Shown: in pieces, positions 11,554-17,744 of the stretch | Layout of the letters: every line of letters starts with the position of its first letter | Position numbering within the stretch: position 1 is the stretch's first letter | Source of the DNA: Chloroflexota bacterium | Lineage (GTDB): Bacteria > Chloroflexota > Dormibacteria > Dormibacterales > Dormibacteraceae | Direction: 5' to 3' | Assembly (NCBI GenBank): GCA_005889085.1 | Contig: VBDS01000045.1 | Span: 1-36,917 of the forward strand | DNA length: 36,917 nucleotides | Made by a program: the position numbers and the translations under genes | The notes under the pieces: model-generated | The model's database searches: none | Told to the model about the DNA's origin: nothing | What the model saw: only the letters and a program-made list of their open reading frames with translations

Positions 11554-12455
11554 AAGTCCACCTCGGGCTTCCGACCACACCGATCGGGCCCGTGGCGCTG
11601 ACGGTCGGAAGCTTCGACGGAGTCCACCTCGGCCACGTCGACGTCATCAGGCACCTGGAGGACACGGCCGTCGCCGAGCACGCTGCGTCCGCCCTGATCA
11701 CGTTCGAGCCACACCCGCGCTGCGTCCTCGACCCCGCCAACTGCCCGTCATCGATCACGACATTGAGCGAGAAGCTTGGCCTCATCGAGGCGGCCGGCGT
11801 TGAGCACGCAATCGTGCTGCGCTTCGACCGCGAGCTGGCGTCGCTGGCGCCTCAGGAGTTCGTCGACCGGGTGGCCGAAGTTATGGACATCAAGGCCTGG
11901 GTCATCGGGTTCGACTTCGCGTTCGGGCGCGGCCGCACCGGCAACGCCGACTGGCTCCGGACGCATGGACACCATGTCGAGGTGGTGCCGCCGTTCAAGA
12001 TCGACGGCCGGGAGCTCCACAGCTCGGAGATCCGGCGACTGGTGACCACCGGGGAGGTGGAGGCGGCGAACCGGCTGCTCGGGCGCGAGTTCGAGATGAG
12101 TGGACCGGTCGAGGCAGGCGCGCAGGTCGGCAGACAGCTCGGCTTTCCGACCGCGAACATCAGCCCGGAGCCGAACAAGCTGGTGCCGGCGCTCGGAGCG
12201 TACGCGGGTCGGGTCGTCGCCCCCGAGGGCGACTTCGTCGCCGCGCTGTCGGTCGGCTACCGCCCGACGTTCGGCGGCACGGAGCTGAAGATCGAAGCCT
12301 TCCTCCTCGACTTCGAGGGCGATCTGTATCAACACAGGCTCCGGCTTCGGTTCGTCCGTTACCTGCATCCCGATATCAAGTTCGCCACGCCAAACGACCT
12401 GGTCCGCCAGCTCAAGCAAGACGTGGCGGACACGCGTCGCATCGTTACTCGGTGA
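11550..12455 (+). CDS. ribF: bifunctional riboflavin kinase/FAD synthetase RibF
   Basis: RibF phosphorylates riboflavin to FMN and adenylates it to FAD. The N-terminal nucleotidyltransferase half has GSFDGVHLGH, the ATP-binding signature. The C-terminal kinase half has GRQLGFPTANI and the conserved region around FVAALSVGYRPTFGG. From CTG 11550 the protein has 301 residues and begins LKVHLGLPTTP, matching the first strand normally present in RibF (MKVIRGL-like). CTG overlaps the truB stop as CTGA, with GGAG 11 bases upstream. The conventional alternative is GTG 11592, giving 287 residues but losing that strand. Its FAD product serves the two flavoproteins encoded next. Confidence 0.92.
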   Translation: MKVHLGLPTTPIGPVALTVGSFDGVHLGHVDVIRHLEDTAVAEHAASALITFEPHPRCVLDPANCPSSITTLSEKLGLIEAAGVEHAIVLRFDRELASLAPQEFVDRVAEVMDIKAWVIGFDFAFGRGRTGNADWLRTHGHHVEVVPPFKIDGRELHSSEIRRLVTTGEVEAANRLLGREFEMSGPVEAGAQVGRQLGFPTANISPEPNKLVPALGAYAGRVVAPEGDFVAALSVGYRPTFGGTELKIEAFLLDFEGDLYQHRLRLRFVRYLHPDIKFATPNDLVRQLKQDVADTRRIVTR

Positions 12456-13579
12456 CGAAGGTCCTCGTCATCGGCGGCGGCATTGCCGGTTACTGCGCGG
12501 CGCTGGCGGCAAGGCGCGAGAGGGCGGAGGTGACTGTCGTGGCGAGGGCGCCTGGTGCGACCGCGCTCTACGCGGGCGGCATGGAGGTGGTGGACGACCT
12601 CGACTCGATCCTCGGTTCGCCCAATCATCCCCTGGCGCGTCTGGGGATGGACGCGGTGGGTCTCGCCACCGAGCTCGACGCCGCGATATCGACCCTAAAG
12701 CTCGCGCTCGGCAGAGGGGGCTTGAGCTTCGAAGGAACCTGGCGCAGCCGCGGCCTTTACGCCGACATCCACGGTCTCGCCCGGCCGGCAAGTGTGGTCC
12801 CCGAAACCGTCGCACCCGGCGAGCTGGGTGGGTTGAGCGGCAAGCGCGTCGCGGTCATCGGGGTGCCACAGGTTGGCGACTATGACGCGGCGTCGACGGC
12901 CCAGGCCCTGAAGGAGCTGCATGGGATCGAGGCGTTCGCGGAGGACATCTCGATCCCGGAGCTGCCACCCGCGGCTTCGATTACCGACCTTTACGGACGT
13001 CGAGCGCCCTCGCCTCGAGCCCGCGGCGCGGCGATCGCGTATCCGCCCGGCTTCACGAACCTGCCATCAGACGGATTTGAGCTGCTCGCCTCGCCACCTT
13101 CGCCTCACGGCTGGCGCCTCCAGCAGGCGATCGCGCTGGGCGCCGTCAGCGCGGAGGTGAGCTCGATCGAGACCGGACGCGGGAAGGTGACGTCGGCACG
13201 CGCGAGCGGCCGCGCCTTCCGCGCTGACGCTTTTGTGCTTGCGACGGGCCGCTACATCGGTGGAGGGCTGCGAGGCGGGCGAACGACCACCGAGTCGCTG
13301 TTCGGACTTGGCGTCTTTCACGAGGGTCTCGCGGCCGCGAGCCTCGGCACCCGTCTGCAACACCTCAAATACCTCGACCCGCGAGAAGAGATGCGAATGG
13401 GAGTGATGACCGACAGACGCCTTCGTCCTCTGCTGGAGGACGGCTCCGTCCCGTACACCAATCTCTACGCGGCCGGGTCGATGCTCGGCGGATACGACTA
13501 CAGCGGACCGTGCGGCTTCGGGGTTCCGATCCTGACGGGGTGGCTCGCCGGCCGAAACGCGGCGAGGCAGGGCCAGTGA
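12452..13579 (+). CDS. GlpB-like FAD-dependent glycerol-3-phosphate dehydrogenase subunit
   Basis: This 375-residue flavoprotein resembles GlpB, the FAD-type subunit B of anaerobic glycerol-3-phosphate dehydrogenase. The Rossmann dinucleotide motif VIGGGIAGYCAA lies at residues 6-17. The C-terminal NLYAAGSMLGGYDYSGPCGFGV closely follows the GlpB ending (AAGAVLGGFD...GCGGGV). Subunits A and C of the usual GlpABC complex are not nearby, so the electron acceptor and even the substrate are uncertain. The GTG start overlaps the ribF stop (GTGA) and its own stop overlaps the next gene (GTGA). The tight packing with an alkylglycerone-phosphate-synthase-like gene suggests a role in dihydroxyacetone-phosphate supply. 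Another flavin oxidoreductase function is possible. Confidence 0.75.
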   Translation: MTKVLVIGGGIAGYCAALAARRERAEVTVVARAPGATALYAGGMEVVDDLDSILGSPNHPLARLGMDAVGLATELDAAISTLKLALGRGGLSFEGTWRSRGLYADIHGLARPASVVPETVAPGELGGLSGKRVAVIGVPQVGDYDAASTAQALKELHGIEAFAEDISIPELPPAASITDLYGRRAPSPRARGAAIAYPPGFTNLPSDGFELLASPPSPHGWRLQQAIALGAVSAEVSSIETGRGKVTSARASGRAFRADAFVLATGRYIGGGLRGGRTTTESLFGLGVFHEGLAAASLGTRLQHLKYLDPREEMRMGVMTDRRLRPLLEDGSVPYTNLYAAGSMLGGYDYSGPCGFGVPILTGWLAGRNAARQGQ

Positions 13580-14937
13580 GGAGCGAGCTCGAGAAGGTCG
13601 TGGGCGCGACAGCGGTTGATGAGCGCCCGATCCGCGACCTGTGGCCGCTCGCGATCATGGACGAGCGTGCCGGCAAGACACCGCCCCGTGTGCTCGTCGT
13701 CCGTCCCGTAGGTCGCGAACAGGTCGCCGCGGTGCTGCGCCTGGCCGCCGCCAACCACGTCGCGGTCACGCCGATGGGGGGAGGCAGCGGAGTATGCGGA
13801 GCGCTCGCGCCGGTGGCCGGCGAGCTGGTCCTCGACATGGGCGCCTTTGACCGCGTCCTCGAGATCGACGAGACCAACCTCGTGTGCCGATGCGAGGCGG
13901 GTGTCAACGGCTACGCGCTGGAGCAGCAGCTCAACGCACGCGGGCTGACGCTCGGCCATTTCCCGAGCTCGCTGCCGGCCACGACCGTCGGTGGGCTGGT
14001 CGCCACGCGTTCCTCCGGACAGCAGTCGAGCCGCTACGGGAGCATCGAGGACATGGTTGTCTCGCTCGCCGTGGTCCTGCCCGACGGCACCTTCGCTGCT
14101 CCGCGTCCAGGTCCGCGGTCCGCGGCGGGGCCTGCGCTGCACGACCTGTTCATCGGAGCCGAGGGAGGGCTCGGAGTGGTGATCGGCGCGGTCCTGCGCG
14201 TCCACCGACTGCCGGAGTCGACGGTAGGCCGCGGCTACGCGTTTCGCGACCTGCGCGCCGGGCTCGATTGCATGCGGGCAGTCATGCAGGCAGGAATCCG
14301 CCCGCTCGTGATGCGCCTCTATGACGCGGAGGACACCGCGTTTGGCGGCTACGACCTGGGGGATGACGAGTGCCTGCTGGTGGTCGCGACTTGCGGTTTG
14401 AGCGCGGTCGCAGCAGCCGAAGCCGCGGCGGTCGAGGCATTCGCGCGCGAGGCGAGGCTACTTGGCGAGGCGCCCTGGGAGCGCTGGCTGCGCCACCGCT
14501 TCGACCTCTCGGCGGACCGCCTGAAAGCCTTCCTCGAGCCACCTGGCGCGTACCTCGACACGATCGAGCTGGCCGCCTCCTGGACGGTCCTCCCCGAGCT
14601 GCACGCCAGGGTCAAGCGCGCAATAGCGGTCGGTGGCCTGGCGTTATGCCATTTCAGTCATGCCTACGAGCAAGGCTGCTGCGCCTATTTCTCATTTGGC
14701 GGCTCAGGTGATACGGAAGATGAAGCGCGTGCGGCCTACGGACGCGCGTGGGAGGGAGCGATGACCACGGCGCTCGAGCTCGGCGCGACGATCACTCACC
14801 ACCACGGCGTTGGGCAGGTAAGAGCGCGATGGGTCGCCGACGAGATGGGAGGCTGGATGCGTGTTTGGCGGGCGTTGAAGGATGGCATCGACCCTGAGGG
14901 GATCATGAACCCGCGAGCATTGGGAGGCCGGTCATAG
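13576..14937 (+). CDS. FAD-binding oxidase related to alkylglycerone-phosphate synthase (AGPS)
   Basis: This protein belongs to the FAD-linked PCMH oxidase superfamily that contains GlcD and AGPS. AGPS swaps the acyl chain of acyl-DHAP for a fatty alcohol, the ether-bond-forming step. The 453-residue product has the flavin-binding GGGSG (about 68-72). It also has the AGPS-like segment SLPATTVGGLVATRSSGQQSSRYGSIEDMV (written here only to give its span, about residues 133-162). A Tyr at 371 lies in CCAYFSF, and a His triplet at 408-410 lies in ITHHHGVG. The triplet and Tyr correspond to catalytic residues of AGPS, whereas GlcD-type enzymes have EHGIG. GTG 13576 overlaps the previous stop. The substrate remains an inference. 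Confidence 0.78.
   Translation: MRSELEKVVGATAVDERPIRDLWPLAIMDERAGKTPPRVLVVRPVGREQVAAVLRLAAANHVAVTPMGGGSGVCGALAPVAGELVLDMGAFDRVLEIDETNLVCRCEAGVNGYALEQQLNARGLTLGHFPSSLPATTVGGLVATRSSGQQSSRYGSIEDMVVSLAVVLPDGTFAAPRPGPRSAAGPALHDLFIGAEGGLGVVIGAVLRVHRLPESTVGRGYAFRDLRAGLDCMRAVMQAGIRPLVMRLYDAEDTAFGGYDLGDDECLLVVATCGLSAVAAAEAAAVEAFAREARLLGEAPWERWLRHRFDLSADRLKAFLEPPGAYLDTIELAASWTVLPELHARVKRAIAVGGLALCHFSHAYEQGCCAYFSFGGSGDTEDEARAAYGRAWEGAMTTALELGATITHHHGVGQVRARWVADEMGGWMRVWRALKDGIDPEGIMNPRALGGRS
14922..14927 (+). promoter_or_regulatory. ribosome-binding site pointing to an ATA start for the DAGK-like gene
   Basis: GGGAGG at 14922-14927 is followed after six bases by ATA 14934, which overlaps the upstream TAG stop as ATAG. 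No ATG, GTG or TTG is in frame until 15063, past the NPSSG motif. Confidence 0.6.
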
Positions 14938-15878
14938 GCGGCCGTTCCGGCGCACCGATCCTGTTCATCGTCAACCCATCCTCAGGCGCGGGCAAGGCCG
15001 GACGTGAGTGGGCTGCAATCGAGACGTGGCTGCCCGCGAGCGGCCTGCCGTACGAAGCCGCTTTGACGACGCGGCCGCTCGAGGCGACCGAGATCGCCCA
15101 GCATGCGGTTCTCGAGTCGCGGCCGCTCGTGGTGGCGGTTGGCGGGGACGGCACACTCAACGAGGTCGTCAACGGTTTCTTCCGCAACGGAGCTCCGCTG
15201 CCGACGAGCAGCAAGCTCGCCATGGTGCCTCTCGGGACAGGCGGAGATTTCCGGCGCACACTGCGCATTCCCGGCGATCCCAAGCAGGCAATCGACGTCT
15301 TGCGCAGCGGGTTGGTGAGACGGCTCGATGCGGGATGCGTGACGTTCCAGACCGACGATGGGGCGACTGCGGTCCGGCATTTCATAAACATCGCGGACGC
15401 GGGGCTTGGTGGAGACGTCGTCTTCCAGATGGGCAACGGAACCAAGAGATTTGGCAGTGCCGCGTACAAGATTGCCGCCGGACGCGCACTCCTCGGCTAC
15501 AAGAACAAGCCGATGACGGTGAATATCGACGGCTCCACGCATGAGCTGCCAAAAGCGCAGCAGGTGGTGGTCGCGAATTGCCAGTTCTTCGGCGGCGGCA
15601 TGCAGATGGCCCCTTCCGCGTCGCCCACTGACGGAGTCTTCGACGTGATCCTGATCAAGGACGCAGGCAAAATTGAAACCATGCGTGGCATGAACGACTT
15701 CCTGGCAGGCAAGCACCTGGATCAGAACAACCCGAAGATCGAGCTGATGTATGGCAAGCGCGTGTCCGTCAGCTCGCCCGAGAAGGTCCGACTGGACATC
15801 GACGGCGAGACGGGTGGATTCCTCCCCGCGCTTTTCGAGATCCAGCCCGGCGCGATCGAATTCGTAACTCCGAGATGA
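14934..15878 (+). CDS. diacylglycerol kinase-like lipid kinase (YegS/DAGK catalytic domain)
   Basis: This is a member of the soluble diacylglycerol/sphingosine-type lipid kinase family, which phosphorylates lipid hydroxyls using ATP. From ATA 14934 the protein has 314 residues, a normal length. The first strand ILFIVNPSSGAGKAG (Asn 14 onwards) and the nucleotide loop GGDGTLNEVVNGF (GGDGTLNE at 70-77) are both intact. The rest fits the beta-sandwich domain (LGTGGDFRRTL, FFGGGMQMAPSASPTDGVFDV). If the first ordinary start, TTG 15063, were used, the NPSSG motif would be lost. It follows the AGPS-like gene with a four-base overlap, so the two are coupled. Its likely job is to phosphorylate a diacyl- or alkylacylglycerol. 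Confidence 0.85.
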   Translation: MGGRSGAPILFIVNPSSGAGKAGREWAAIETWLPASGLPYEAALTTRPLEATEIAQHAVLESRPLVVAVGGDGTLNEVVNGFFRNGAPLPTSSKLAMVPLGTGGDFRRTLRIPGDPKQAIDVLRSGLVRRLDAGCVTFQTDDGATAVRHFINIADAGLGGDVVFQMGNGTKRFGSAAYKIAAGRALLGYKNKPMTVNIDGSTHELPKAQQVVVANCQFFGGGMQMAPSASPTDGVFDVILIKDAGKIETMRGMNDFLAGKHLDQNNPKIELMYGKRVSVSSPEKVRLDIDGETGGFLPALFEIQPGAIEFVTPR

Positions 15879-17342
15879 CGCGCGGGGTTATCGCAACCCC
15901 GCATCACGCCGCCAGCGACATCGGGGCTCAGATCCTGCGCGATGGCGGCAACGCGATCGACGCCGCCATCGCTGCCGACGCTGCGCTGTGCGTGGTCTAC
16001 CCGCATATGACATCGGTCGCCGGCGACCTGATGGCGATCGTATGGGCCGGCGGCGAGACTTCGCCCGTCGGCCTGATCGGCGCGGGCCGCTCGGGCGAGC
16101 TCGCCACGATCGGGGCCGTGCGCGCGCGCGGCCACGACTCGATGCCGGCCCGCGGCGTGCTGCCGGTCACGGTGCCGGGCACGGTCGAGGCGTGGGGGAG
16201 ACTGCTCGAGCGATTCGGCAGCCTGGGGCTGGGCGCGGTCCTCGAACCGGCCGAGTCGCTGGCCCGGGACGGCTTCGTGATCACGCCGCAGGTCTCCCAG
16301 TTTCTGATGCAAGCCGCGGATTGGCTGGGCCGCGAGCCGGCCGCGTACGCGCTCTACCCGCCAATGGAGGCAGGCATGCTTCTGCGCAACCCAGACCTCG
16401 CGTCGGTGTTGCGCGACCTAGGCCACAGCGGAATCAACGGCTTCTATCGCGGCGAGATAGGTGCGGCGATTGCGTCGGCGATCAAGCGTCGCGACGGCTT
16501 CGTCACGCGACACGACCTGGCCACGCATCGATCGCAGTGGGTCGACCCGGTTGCGTTTCCGTATCGAGGCCTGGTCGTCTACGAGCTCCCCCCACCGACG
16601 CAGGGCCTCGCCGCCGCGGCGATGCTGGTCCGGCTGGAGGCAGGCGCTTCGTTCCAAGGTGCGCGCGACGCGAGCTACGCGCTGCGCGACCGCTACATCT
16701 CCGACCCGGATTTTTCTCCTGTGCCGGCGGAGCCTTTCCTCAATCCGCAACATGCGCCCGAAGGTCGCGCCGTGGCCCATGAAGCGGGCGACACGGTCTA
16801 TCTCTGTGCCGCAGATGAACACGGCAACGTCATCTCGATGATCCAGAGCGTTGCGTTCGACTTCGGGTCGGGCATCGTCGCCGAGGGCACGGGCATGCTG
16901 CTCCAGAATCGCGGTGCCTACTTCAGCCTCGACGAAATCCCACGTCAACCGGCTCGAGCCGAAGAAGCGGACCATGCACACGCTCATCCCGGCCCTCGCG
17001 GCGCGTGAGGGCCGGCCCTGGGCGGCTTTTGGCTCTATGGGTGCCGACCTGCAGCCCCAGCTCCAGGCGCAGGTGCTGATGAACCTGGTCGACCACGACA
17101 TGGACCCTGCCGACGCGGTGGCGCGCCCACGCATGGCGGTCCTGCCGGACGGCGTCACGGTCGCGGTCGAGGCCGACTACCCCGGCGCCGGGGAGATGGC
17201 CCGGACCGGCGCCCATGTCCAGCTGATGCCGGCACGCCACCACTCGTTCGGCCACGCCCATGCGCTGGTGATCGACGGTCCCAACGCCTGGCGTGGCGGG
17301 GCCGACCCACGCTCGGACGGATCGGTCGAATACGTCCGATAG
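15875..17342 (+). CDS. gamma-glutamyltransferase family protein, interrupted by a +1 frameshift
   Basis: GGT-family proteins are Ntn hydrolases that self-cleave before a Thr nucleophile. They transfer or hydrolyse gamma-glutamyl groups or related amides. The first frame (15875 to TGA at 17006-17008) carries the N-terminal HAASDIGAQILRDGGNAIDAA region and the cleavage/nucleophile segment GDTVYLCAADEHGNVISMIQS. The family then continues in the next frame with HVNRLEPKKRTMHTLIPA and GSMGADLQPQ, to TAG 17340-17342. The break lies near 16934-16941, at a CCC run. Skipping one base there restores a 488-residue protein, slightly short for GGT. It is either a real lesion making a pseudogene or a one-base assembly error. 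The start ATG overlaps the kinase stop (ATGA). Confidence 0.85.
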
Positions 17343-17409: not shown

Positions 17410-17456
17410 AATGCGTGGCTTGGGAGTGCCGCTCACGGCCGATGAACGTCGCCCCG

Positions 17457-17462
17457 TATACT
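17457..17462 (+). promoter_or_regulatory. possible -10 box for rpsO
   Basis: TATACT lies 12 bases before the rpsO TTG start and matches the sigma-70-type -10 consensus in five of six positions. No -35 hexamer is visible. If used, the leader would be only about five to six bases. Confidence 0.35.
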
Positions 17463-17474
17463 TGCCAGCGAGTT

Positions 17475-17744
17475 TTGGCAGTCGAGAACGAAGTCAAAGG
17501 CAAGCTGATCGCGGAGCACAAGCGCGCAGAGAAGGACACGGGATCCCCCGAGGTCCAGATTGCGCTGTCCACCGCCAGGATCCGGGAGCTCACCGAGCAC
17601 CTGAAGACGCACGCCAAGGACCATCACTCGCGCCGCGGCCTGCTTCTCCTGGTGGGCAAGCAAAGGCGTCTGCTGAACTATTTGAGGGACACCGACGTGG
17701 AGCGCTATCGCGCCCTCGTCGCCAAGCTCGGGATCAGGAGGTAA
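17475..17744 (+). CDS. rpsO: 30S ribosomal protein S15
   Basis: S15 binds the central domain of 16S rRNA early in 30S assembly. From the TTG at 17475 the protein is 89 residues, exactly the standard length. It contains the signature stretch [22 protein letters not shown] (about residues 40-61) and the terminal [14 protein letters not shown]. Upstream in-frame starts such as ATG 17415 would add about 20 residues not found in S15. The stop codon is preceded by AGGAGG. The gene has its own structured upstream region and is followed by pnp after 148 bases, the widespread rpsO-pnp pairing. Confidence 0.96.

Follow-up and report, generated by a model that had tools for sequence, protein, structure and literature searches.

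Organization of the ribF-rpsO interval

The window, i.e. the whole stretch of 36,917 nucleotides analyzed here, comes from a soil Chloroflexota bacterium (Dormibacteraceae) whose genome assembly is 86% complete. The three open reading frames of positions 12452-15878, in which the original prediction recognized a GlpB-like flavoprotein, a relative of alkyl-DHAP synthase (AGPS) and a lipid kinase, are all present and correctly read, and Pfam and NCBIfam matches together with the HHHGVG and Tyr motifs agree with these identities. Overlaps of four bases chain them to ribF upstream and to a gamma-glutamyltransferase (GGT)-like gene downstream, all on the plus strand. The relevant features are:

11592..12455, plus strand: ribF, riboflavin kinase/FAD synthetase (FAD_syn 5e-39, Flavokinase 2e-35); GTGA stop/start overlap with the GlpB-like gene
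12452..13579, plus strand: GlpB-like flavoprotein, 375 aa; GTG start inside the ribF stop (GTGA), N-terminal Rossmann motif GGGIAG
13576..14937, plus strand: AGPS-like (HHH-type) FAD oxidoreductase, 453 aa; GTG start, GTGA overlap, FAD_binding_4 and FAD-oxidase_C domains
13957..13959, plus strand: His128 of the GHFPSS motif, aligned to guinea-pig AGPS His300
14314..14316, plus strand: Arg247, kept, aligned to Dictyostelium discoideum AGPS Arg352
14686..14688, plus strand: Tyr371, catalytic-type, kept, aligned to D. discoideum AGPS Tyr508 and guinea-pig Tyr578
14797..14805, plus strand: His408-His409-His410 of HHHGVG (residues 408-413), the AGPS His triplet
14934..15878, plus strand: YegS-type lipid (diacylglycerol) kinase, about 314 aa (DAGK_cat 3e-29, YegS_C 1e-33)
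15875..17342, plus strand: GGT-like gene; ATGA overlap with the kinase gene
17415..17744, plus strand: rpsO, right border of the ribF-rpsO interval

The 5' end of the kinase gene offers no ATG, GTG or TTG start codon; translation likely starts at the ATA at 14934, within an ATAG pattern that is conserved across the genus. The kinase scores 156.7 bits against TIGR00147 (YegS/Rv2252/BmrU; cut-off 118.65), with both DAGK_cat and YegS_C above cut-off. The GGT-like gene, omitted in the original prediction, is a member of the same overlapping run; an additional A at 16935 shifts its reading frame in the window, and the gene is intact in relatives. A PADLOC search gave no match to a defence family.

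The GlpB-like protein reaches neither the curated cut-off of NF003723 (97 bits, 8e-28; cut-off 680) nor that of TIGR03378 (71 against 174), although GlpB is by far its nearest named family, hence the name GlpB-like. A group-specific GlpB family matches with E values of about 1e-132 to 1e-195 in the window family and in one genome of the sister family (G059), and GlpABC-type GlpB with only about 1e-40. The predicted structure of this protein (pLDDT 33 from a six-row alignment) supports no fold statement. No relatives were found on plasmids, and neither a GlpA nor a CCG gene lies beside the GlpB-like gene at the window locus.

Conservation in the family and in the sister family

The AGPS-like gene adjoins the kinase gene in 36 of the 37 family genomes, and the block persists over 14 genera at protein identities as low as about 50%, which argues against a chance arrangement. 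GlpB is present in 29 of the 33 genomes examined; the other four (G005, G029, G020 and G032) keep the flavoprotein and the kinase, and another genome (G019) lacks GGT, so that the core pair depends on neither GlpB nor GGT.

In the sister family the usual arrangement is ribF-kinase-rpsO, with additions 5' of the kinase of either GlpB or GlpB, the AGPS-like gene and an iron-sulfur (CCG) subunit. The latter case is G059 (ribF-GlpB-AGPS-like-CCG FeS-kinase-rpsO), the only genome with a CCG gene beside the GlpB-like gene; the extra subunit is an electron-transfer protein. In G039, GlpB and the kinase occupy the locus and the flavoprotein is missing there, which together with the four GlpB-less genomes indicates that a fixed complex with GlpB is not required everywhere. 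The three genes do lie within the ribF-rpsO interval, as originally described, but the idea of an insertion has to be corrected: in the sister family the kinase by itself usually occupies the interval, and it was probably there before the flavoproteins. Related genomes also have ordinary GlpK-GlpA-GlpB-GlpC operons.

Phylogeny, active-site residues and fold of the AGPS-like protein

Phylogenetic trees place the AGPS-like protein in the HHH (AGPS) superclade, apart from the GEHG enzymes (support 100); the grouping with GlcD/D-lactate enzymes, which the original prediction had named as speaking against it, did not occur. Within the superclade the protein falls outside the AGPS clade (support 99), which contains eukaryotic AGPS, as do the plasmid-borne relatives from catabolic operons. 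In AU tests, placement as sister to the entire AGPS clade was not rejected (p 0.44) and direct grouping with eukaryotic AGPS alone was weakly rejected (p 0.034).

The resemblance to AGPS is borne out by sequence comparison with solved structures, among which AGPS is closest (2uuu, E 2e-64; 4bby, 1e-51), followed by D-lactate dehydrogenase (8e-37). The top NCBIfam match is GlcD, under its cut-off, and the GEHG signature of GlcD-type enzymes is replaced by HHHG. For the predicted model Foldseek ranks AGPS first, whereas VIA-align favours D-lactate dehydrogenase (Z 40.2 versus 38.7 for AGPS), a near tie of 1.5 Z, so that the two folds match the model about equally and are not separated.

Eukaryotic AGPS/ADPS and Myxococcus xanthus MXAN_1676 share with the window protein the VAO fold, the HHH triplet, the catalytic Tyr and one catalytic Arg, but differ in their gene neighbours and in several structural respects. 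The model lacks the AGPS N-terminal extension (its residue 1 aligns to AGPS 164), and the segment between the two catalytic arginines of AGPS, Arg352 and Arg447 in D. discoideum numbering (PMC3509576), comprises 68 aa versus 95 in D. discoideum. At the position of R447, local alignment gives K and multiple alignment R in the window protein (in the stretch SADRLK), with a spacing compatible with either; relatives carry W, L or Q (W or L in two of them in the multiple alignment), and there is no strict conservation. To call R447 simply lost would therefore be too strong, as K or R could be its counterpart in the window family to judge by the spacing.

Genomic neighborhoods of relatives in other bacteria

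Of eight Myxococcota/delta loci, six have a CCG gene close to the AGPS-like gene and four a lipid kinase gene; the partner of the AGPS-like protein in Myxococcota may be a GlcE-like protein with a CCG subunit. GlpD adjoins the AGPS-like gene in 42 of 51 Acidimicrobiia-type loci, followed by an FGGY/GlpK-type kinase, and actinobacteria of the R447 type have GlpD in 10/12 loci and a lipid kinase in 8/12. The catabolic operons (for polyols or glycerol) of plasmid-borne relatives read LacI-FAD oxidoreductase-xylulokinase-UgpC/ABC, DeoR-FAD oxidoreductase-PdxA-four-carbon acid sugar kinase, GlpD-FAD oxidoreductase-FGGY and FAD oxidoreductase-GlpK-GlpD. The link to glycerol-phosphate metabolism drawn in the original prediction is correct. 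Most of these catabolic-operon relatives also carry the His/Arg/Tyr motif set, so the His triplet, the Tyr and one Arg are not diagnostic of AGPS.

The suggested parallel with mycobacteria is matched by the annotation in Tsukamurella (GlpD, TetR, FAD oxidoreductase, diacylglycerol kinase) and by similar loci in Mycobacterium, Rhodococcus and Streptomyces. As in the Rv2249c (glpD1)-Rv2251-Rv2252 type (loci L102, L125 and L208), the AGPS-like flavoprotein is encoded directly 5' of a diacylglycerol kinase, with GlpD nearby; the mycobacterial-type protein, however, keeps R447 and falls inside the AGPS clade. In Pseudomonas aeruginosa, PA3026-PA3023 form one co-regulated cluster under GliR that encodes an FAD oxidoreductase, a GlpD homologue, an FGGY kinase and a YegS-type lipid kinase (PMC8151288). 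Compared at the level of the cluster, not of PA3026 residues, it shares with the window an FAD oxidoreductase, a flavoprotein of the G3P-oxidising type and a lipid kinase, with a function that is unproven there too (PMC8151288); the window differs in having GlpB for GlpD, the coupling to ribF and the extra GGT-like gene, and in lacking a glycerol kinase. Our literature search found nothing on function for Rv2251/Rv2252 or for ether lipids in Dormibacterota, and no assayed enzyme of the AGPS-like subgroup.

Related functions encoded elsewhere in the genome

GlpD and GlpK are encoded at other loci of the window genome, which already provide for simple G3P oxidation. Separate GlcD-type genes lie with a CCG gene on another contig (C10); as far as seen, the CCG proteins of this genome sit at loci other than that of the window. 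The search for the flanking steps of ether-lipid synthesis gave a candidate for one of the two enzymes. No GPAT_C (GNPAT/PlsB-type) acyltransferase matched in 37 genomes, with a positive E. coli control, though another acyltransferase could serve and the window genome is 86% complete. A conserved 786-aa protein with NAD_binding_4, Sterile and HAD domains is a candidate fatty acyl-CoA reductase, and the only fair one, as the PF07993 search is unspecific (it matches 14/14 controls).

Discussion

Gene order, overlaps, conservation, family membership, motif state and neighbour sets are established here at the level of sequence. They are best read as a redox variant, with GlpB replacing GlpD, of a glycerolipid module described before for Pseudomonas (PA3026-PA3023) and also found in mycobacteria. 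We give roughly even chances to the cassette being a glycerolipid/polyol turnover module with an AGPS-like flavin dehydrogenase. This reading draws on the near-constant adjacency of flavoprotein and kinase, the CCG subunit of G059, the GlpD, CCG and kinase neighbours and catabolic plasmid operons of relatives, the tree and residue state, and the PA3026-PA3023 cluster; gene neighbours across bacteria point to the oxidation of glycerol-type compounds, and not to ether-lipid synthesis, as the task of the protein and its relatives. Weighing against it are the GlpB-less genomes and G039, the missing CCG subunit at the window locus, the separate GlpD and GlpK, the near-equal fold match to D-lactate dehydrogenase and AGPS, and the AU result for a sister position to the AGPS clade.

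In such a module, the AGPS-like protein would most likely oxidise its substrate at FAD, a candidate substrate being a probably phosphorylated compound of the glycerol, polyol or DHAP type, with the His triplet, Arg247 and Tyr371 serving in substrate binding and proton abstraction. Electrons may leave via a partner, perhaps GlpB in the window, GlpB and CCG in the related family and the GlcE-like protein with CCG in Myxococcota. The kinase would (re-)phosphorylate diacylglycerol-type lipids within the same turnover, and translational coupling to ribF places FAD supply and flavoprotein synthesis on a single message.

A more specific possibility, which we hold tentatively and consider rather unlikely, is a hybrid electron-transferring glycerol-phosphate dehydrogenase on the GlpABC plan, with the AGPS-like protein in the place of GlpA. 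It would be complete in G059 (GlpB, AGPS-like protein and CCG) and reduced in the window, and would act on a substrate that GlpD refuses, such as sn-glycerol-1-phosphate or a lysolipid-type glycerophosphate. The anaerobic G3P dehydrogenase GlpABC likewise has a GlpB-family subunit, but its GlpA belongs to a different superfamily from the AGPS-like FAD protein, and GlpC has no counterpart at the window locus.

The original proposal of ether-lipid synthesis now appears unlikely. In it, DHAP would be acylated, a fatty alcohol would take the place of the acyl chain on the AGPS-like enzyme to form alkyl-DHAP, and the (alkyl)glycerolipids that result would be substrates of the kinase. The closeness to AGPS in PDB sequences and by Foldseek, the conserved GH, R352, Y508 and HHH, the candidate reductase, the G3P/DHAP-related genes adjoining relatives and the AU result for a sister position all favour it. 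Yet most relatives in catabolic operons have identical residues, R447 has no fixed place, the R352-R447 segment is shortened, the protein falls outside the AGPS clade, and no GPAT_C acyltransferase was found in 37 genomes. In M. xanthus the AGPS gene shares an operon with a FAR and GNPAT-like fusion (PMC9131029), which is missing at the window locus, and a non-redox synthase has no obvious need for the electron-transfer subunits that adjoin relatives.

It is similarly doubtful that the genes are grouped mainly by a need for FAD (the ribF coupling) or by lineage habit, with GlpB, the FAD oxidoreductase, the kinase and GGT in separate pathways. Such a grouping would account for the independent gain and loss of GlpB, GGT and CCG genes, for the probable precedence of the kinase and for GGT, which has no obvious role in lipids, but not for the recurrence of a G3P-oxidising flavoprotein and a lipid kinase beside the AGPS-like gene at unrelated loci in other phyla (PMC8151288). 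A GlcD-kind D-2-hydroxyacid dehydrogenase (for glycolate, D-lactate or D-glycerate) with a drifted active site is highly improbable: the GlcD match under cut-off and the VIA-align order fit it, but the fully supported separation from GEHG enzymes, HHHG for GEHG and the distinct GlcD-type genes on C10 do not.

Metagenome surveys take "AGPS homologues" as a sign of ether-lipid synthesis (e.g. PMC11868695). Since a broad AGPS-like branch sits in catabolic or redox contexts, the His/Tyr motif should not be taken as ether-lipid capacity, and if the hybrid dehydrogenase were real, much of so-called bacterial AGPS would be a new dehydrogenase class. The turnover module offers a testable target, a candidate flavin dehydrogenase whose gene is associated with those for glycerol-phosphate metabolism and lipid kinases in several phyla, with mycobacteria and pseudomonads among the carriers.

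Gene layout and conservation of the ribF-rpsO interval

The cassette of the original prediction, comprising a GlpB-like protein, an AGPS-like FAD oxidoreductase and a lipid kinase, is present as claimed in the sequence of the window's genome (2.8 Mb, 86% complete), with a four-base overlap at each junction. Taken together, such overlaps define a coupled run of ribF, GlpB-like, AGPS-like, lipid kinase and GGT-like genes, followed downstream by rpsO and then pnp.

Junctions within the coupled run
12452, + strand: ribF/GlpB-like junction, GTGA, 4-base overlap
13576, + strand: GlpB-like/FAD oxidoreductase junction, GTGA, 4-base overlap
14934, + strand: FAD oxidoreductase/lipid kinase junction, ATAG, 4-base overlap
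15875, + strand: lipid kinase/GGT-like junction, ATGA, 4-base overlap

The GGT-like gene (15875-17342), a member of the run missing from the predicted cassette, carries one additional A at 16935, compared with the closest relative (locus L064), that shifts its frame in the window; the gene is unbroken in relatives (~500 aa). The added base may be an assembly error or mark a real loss of the gene. The lipid kinase apparently starts with ATA within ATAG (14934-14937), an uncommon initiation codon where stop and start overlap; this junction is kept throughout the genus and is replaced by ATGA or GTGA in other genera.

The named relatives from the family are Dormibacterota/'Chloroflexi' MAGs, several of soil origin. 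By a tally made by eye, the FAD oxidoreductase and lipid kinase genes are adjacent in 36 of 37 family genomes from 14 genera, the sole exception having the two on separate contigs. GlpB lies between ribF and the FAD oxidoreductase in 29 of the 33 genomes examined (absent from G005, G029, G020 and G032), and GGT is absent from G019. In two genomes of one genus, the AGPS-like gene match (L027 on G025:C93, and G034:C44) crosses one in-frame TGA. In another family of the class, ribF-kinase-rpsO is the arrangement in most genomes read, with ribF-GlpB-kinase-rpsO in G039 and ribF-GlpB-AGPS-like-CCG iron-sulfur subunit-kinase-rpsO in G059. The simplest history would be that the lipid kinase was the earliest arrival in the interval and the flavoproteins were inserted ahead of it later.

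Phylogeny, structure and catalytic residues of the AGPS-like protein

In two trees of the 'quick' kind, proteins with the His triplet form one fully supported superclade, separate from the GlcD-type (GEHG) enzymes. Within it, a clade with support of 99* includes the mycobacterial type and eukaryotic AGPS, the latter represented by less than full-length fragments from sequence-search alignments. The window family falls outside this clade in both trees; a sister position to it is not rejected (AU test, p 0.44), and direct grouping with eukaryotic AGPS, a group picked after the tree was seen, is weakly rejected (AU p 0.034). Two motifs differ in a separate AGPS-clade group (L039, L041, L136, L139-L141): RH(F/Y/Q)PQS replaces GH.PQS, and the Tyr motif reads PAPY or CAPY.

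Among solved structures, the D. discoideum and guinea-pig AGPS enzymes are closest in sequence, with D-lactate dehydrogenase far behind. The AlphaFold model is of good quality (pLDDT 89) but matches AGPS (Z 38.7) about as well as it matches D-lactate dehydrogenase (Z 40.2). R352, R447 and Y508 (D. discoideum numbering) are required for AGPS catalysis (PMC3509576). Almost all of the superclade relatives that were read retain R352, Y508 and the His triplet. The R447 position is conserved (YLRD) in actinobacterial Rv2251-like proteins but not in those of Acidimicrobiia, Myxococcota and G059; in the window family K or R occupies a nearby position, where two genomes have W or L instead. The R352-R447 segment, where the phmmer alignment is also interrupted, comprises 68 residues here versus 95 in D. 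discoideum and probably corresponds to the AGPS gate segment.

Gene neighborhoods of relatives

Neighbors were tallied by custom profile searches with loose gene calls among the best 80 named loci matching the G059 protein in a scan of genome contigs, an uneven sample; the tallies are lower bounds since some loci stop close to the gene. GlpD lies within 2.5 kb in at least 42 of 51 Acidimicrobiia-type loci, followed in those read by an FGGY kinase best matching glycerol kinase. R447-type actinobacteria have GlpD in at least 10 of 12 loci and a lipid kinase in at least 8 of 12, and Myxococcota/delta loci have a CCG subunit in at least 6 of 8 and a lipid kinase in at least 4 of 8, with a small GlcE-like FAD_binding_4 protein in between in the locus read.

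Plasmid-borne relatives, which share the His motif except in Mesorhizobium (EHH), occur in the following contexts: LacI-FAD oxidoreductase-xylulokinase-UgpC/ABC transporter (Roseibium, Paracoccus, Shinella), xylulokinase-FAD oxidoreductase (Mesorhizobium), DeoR-FAD oxidoreductase-PdxA-four-carbon acid sugar kinase (Methylobacterium), GlpD-FAD oxidoreductase-FGGY kinase (Novosphingobium, Paracoccus jeotgali), FAD oxidoreductase-GlpK-GlpD (Microbacterium) and GlpD-TetR-FAD oxidoreductase-diacylglycerol kinase (Tsukamurella).

Dehydrogenase or ether-lipid synthase

The AGPS-like protein is read as a probable dehydrogenase, mainly because it is hard to see what an ether-lipid synthase would do in a polyol operon linked to a transporter, or what electron-transfer partners would gain from an enzyme that brings about no net redox change; the argument comes from gene context rather than from assay. 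The window's genome also encodes GlpD, GlpK and GlcD-type genes at other loci. The ether-lipid pathway originally predicted, with the AGPS-like protein as candidate key enzyme, may still operate: a 786-aa protein that joins an NAD_binding_4 domain (fatty acyl reductase type) to Sterile and HAD domains (L193 3844-6201, G000:C148), conserved in nearly all family genomes searched, could be a source of fatty alcohols. Such a pathway would have no recognized acyltransferase: 37 genomes gave no match to GPAT_C, the PlsB/GNPAT-type domain (E. coli control positive). A second kinase-type ORF of 824 aa (L196 2573-5044, G000:C50), with DAGK_cat and PAP2 matches, is a possible kinase-phosphatase fusion.

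The Dormibacterota cassette is a variant of a kind of cluster already published, P. aeruginosa PA3026-PA3023 of the GliR regulon, for which an alkyl-glycerone-phosphate route was proposed, although deleting PA3026-PA3024 left growth unaffected in the conditions assayed (PMC8151288). Likened to it by gene content, the Dormibacterota cassette has GlpB for GlpD, is coupled to ribF and adds GGT, while G059 carries a fuller GlpB and CCG set. The wider neighbor pattern weakens AGPS-like genes as ether-lipid markers and singles out a putative dehydrogenase family open to direct testing.
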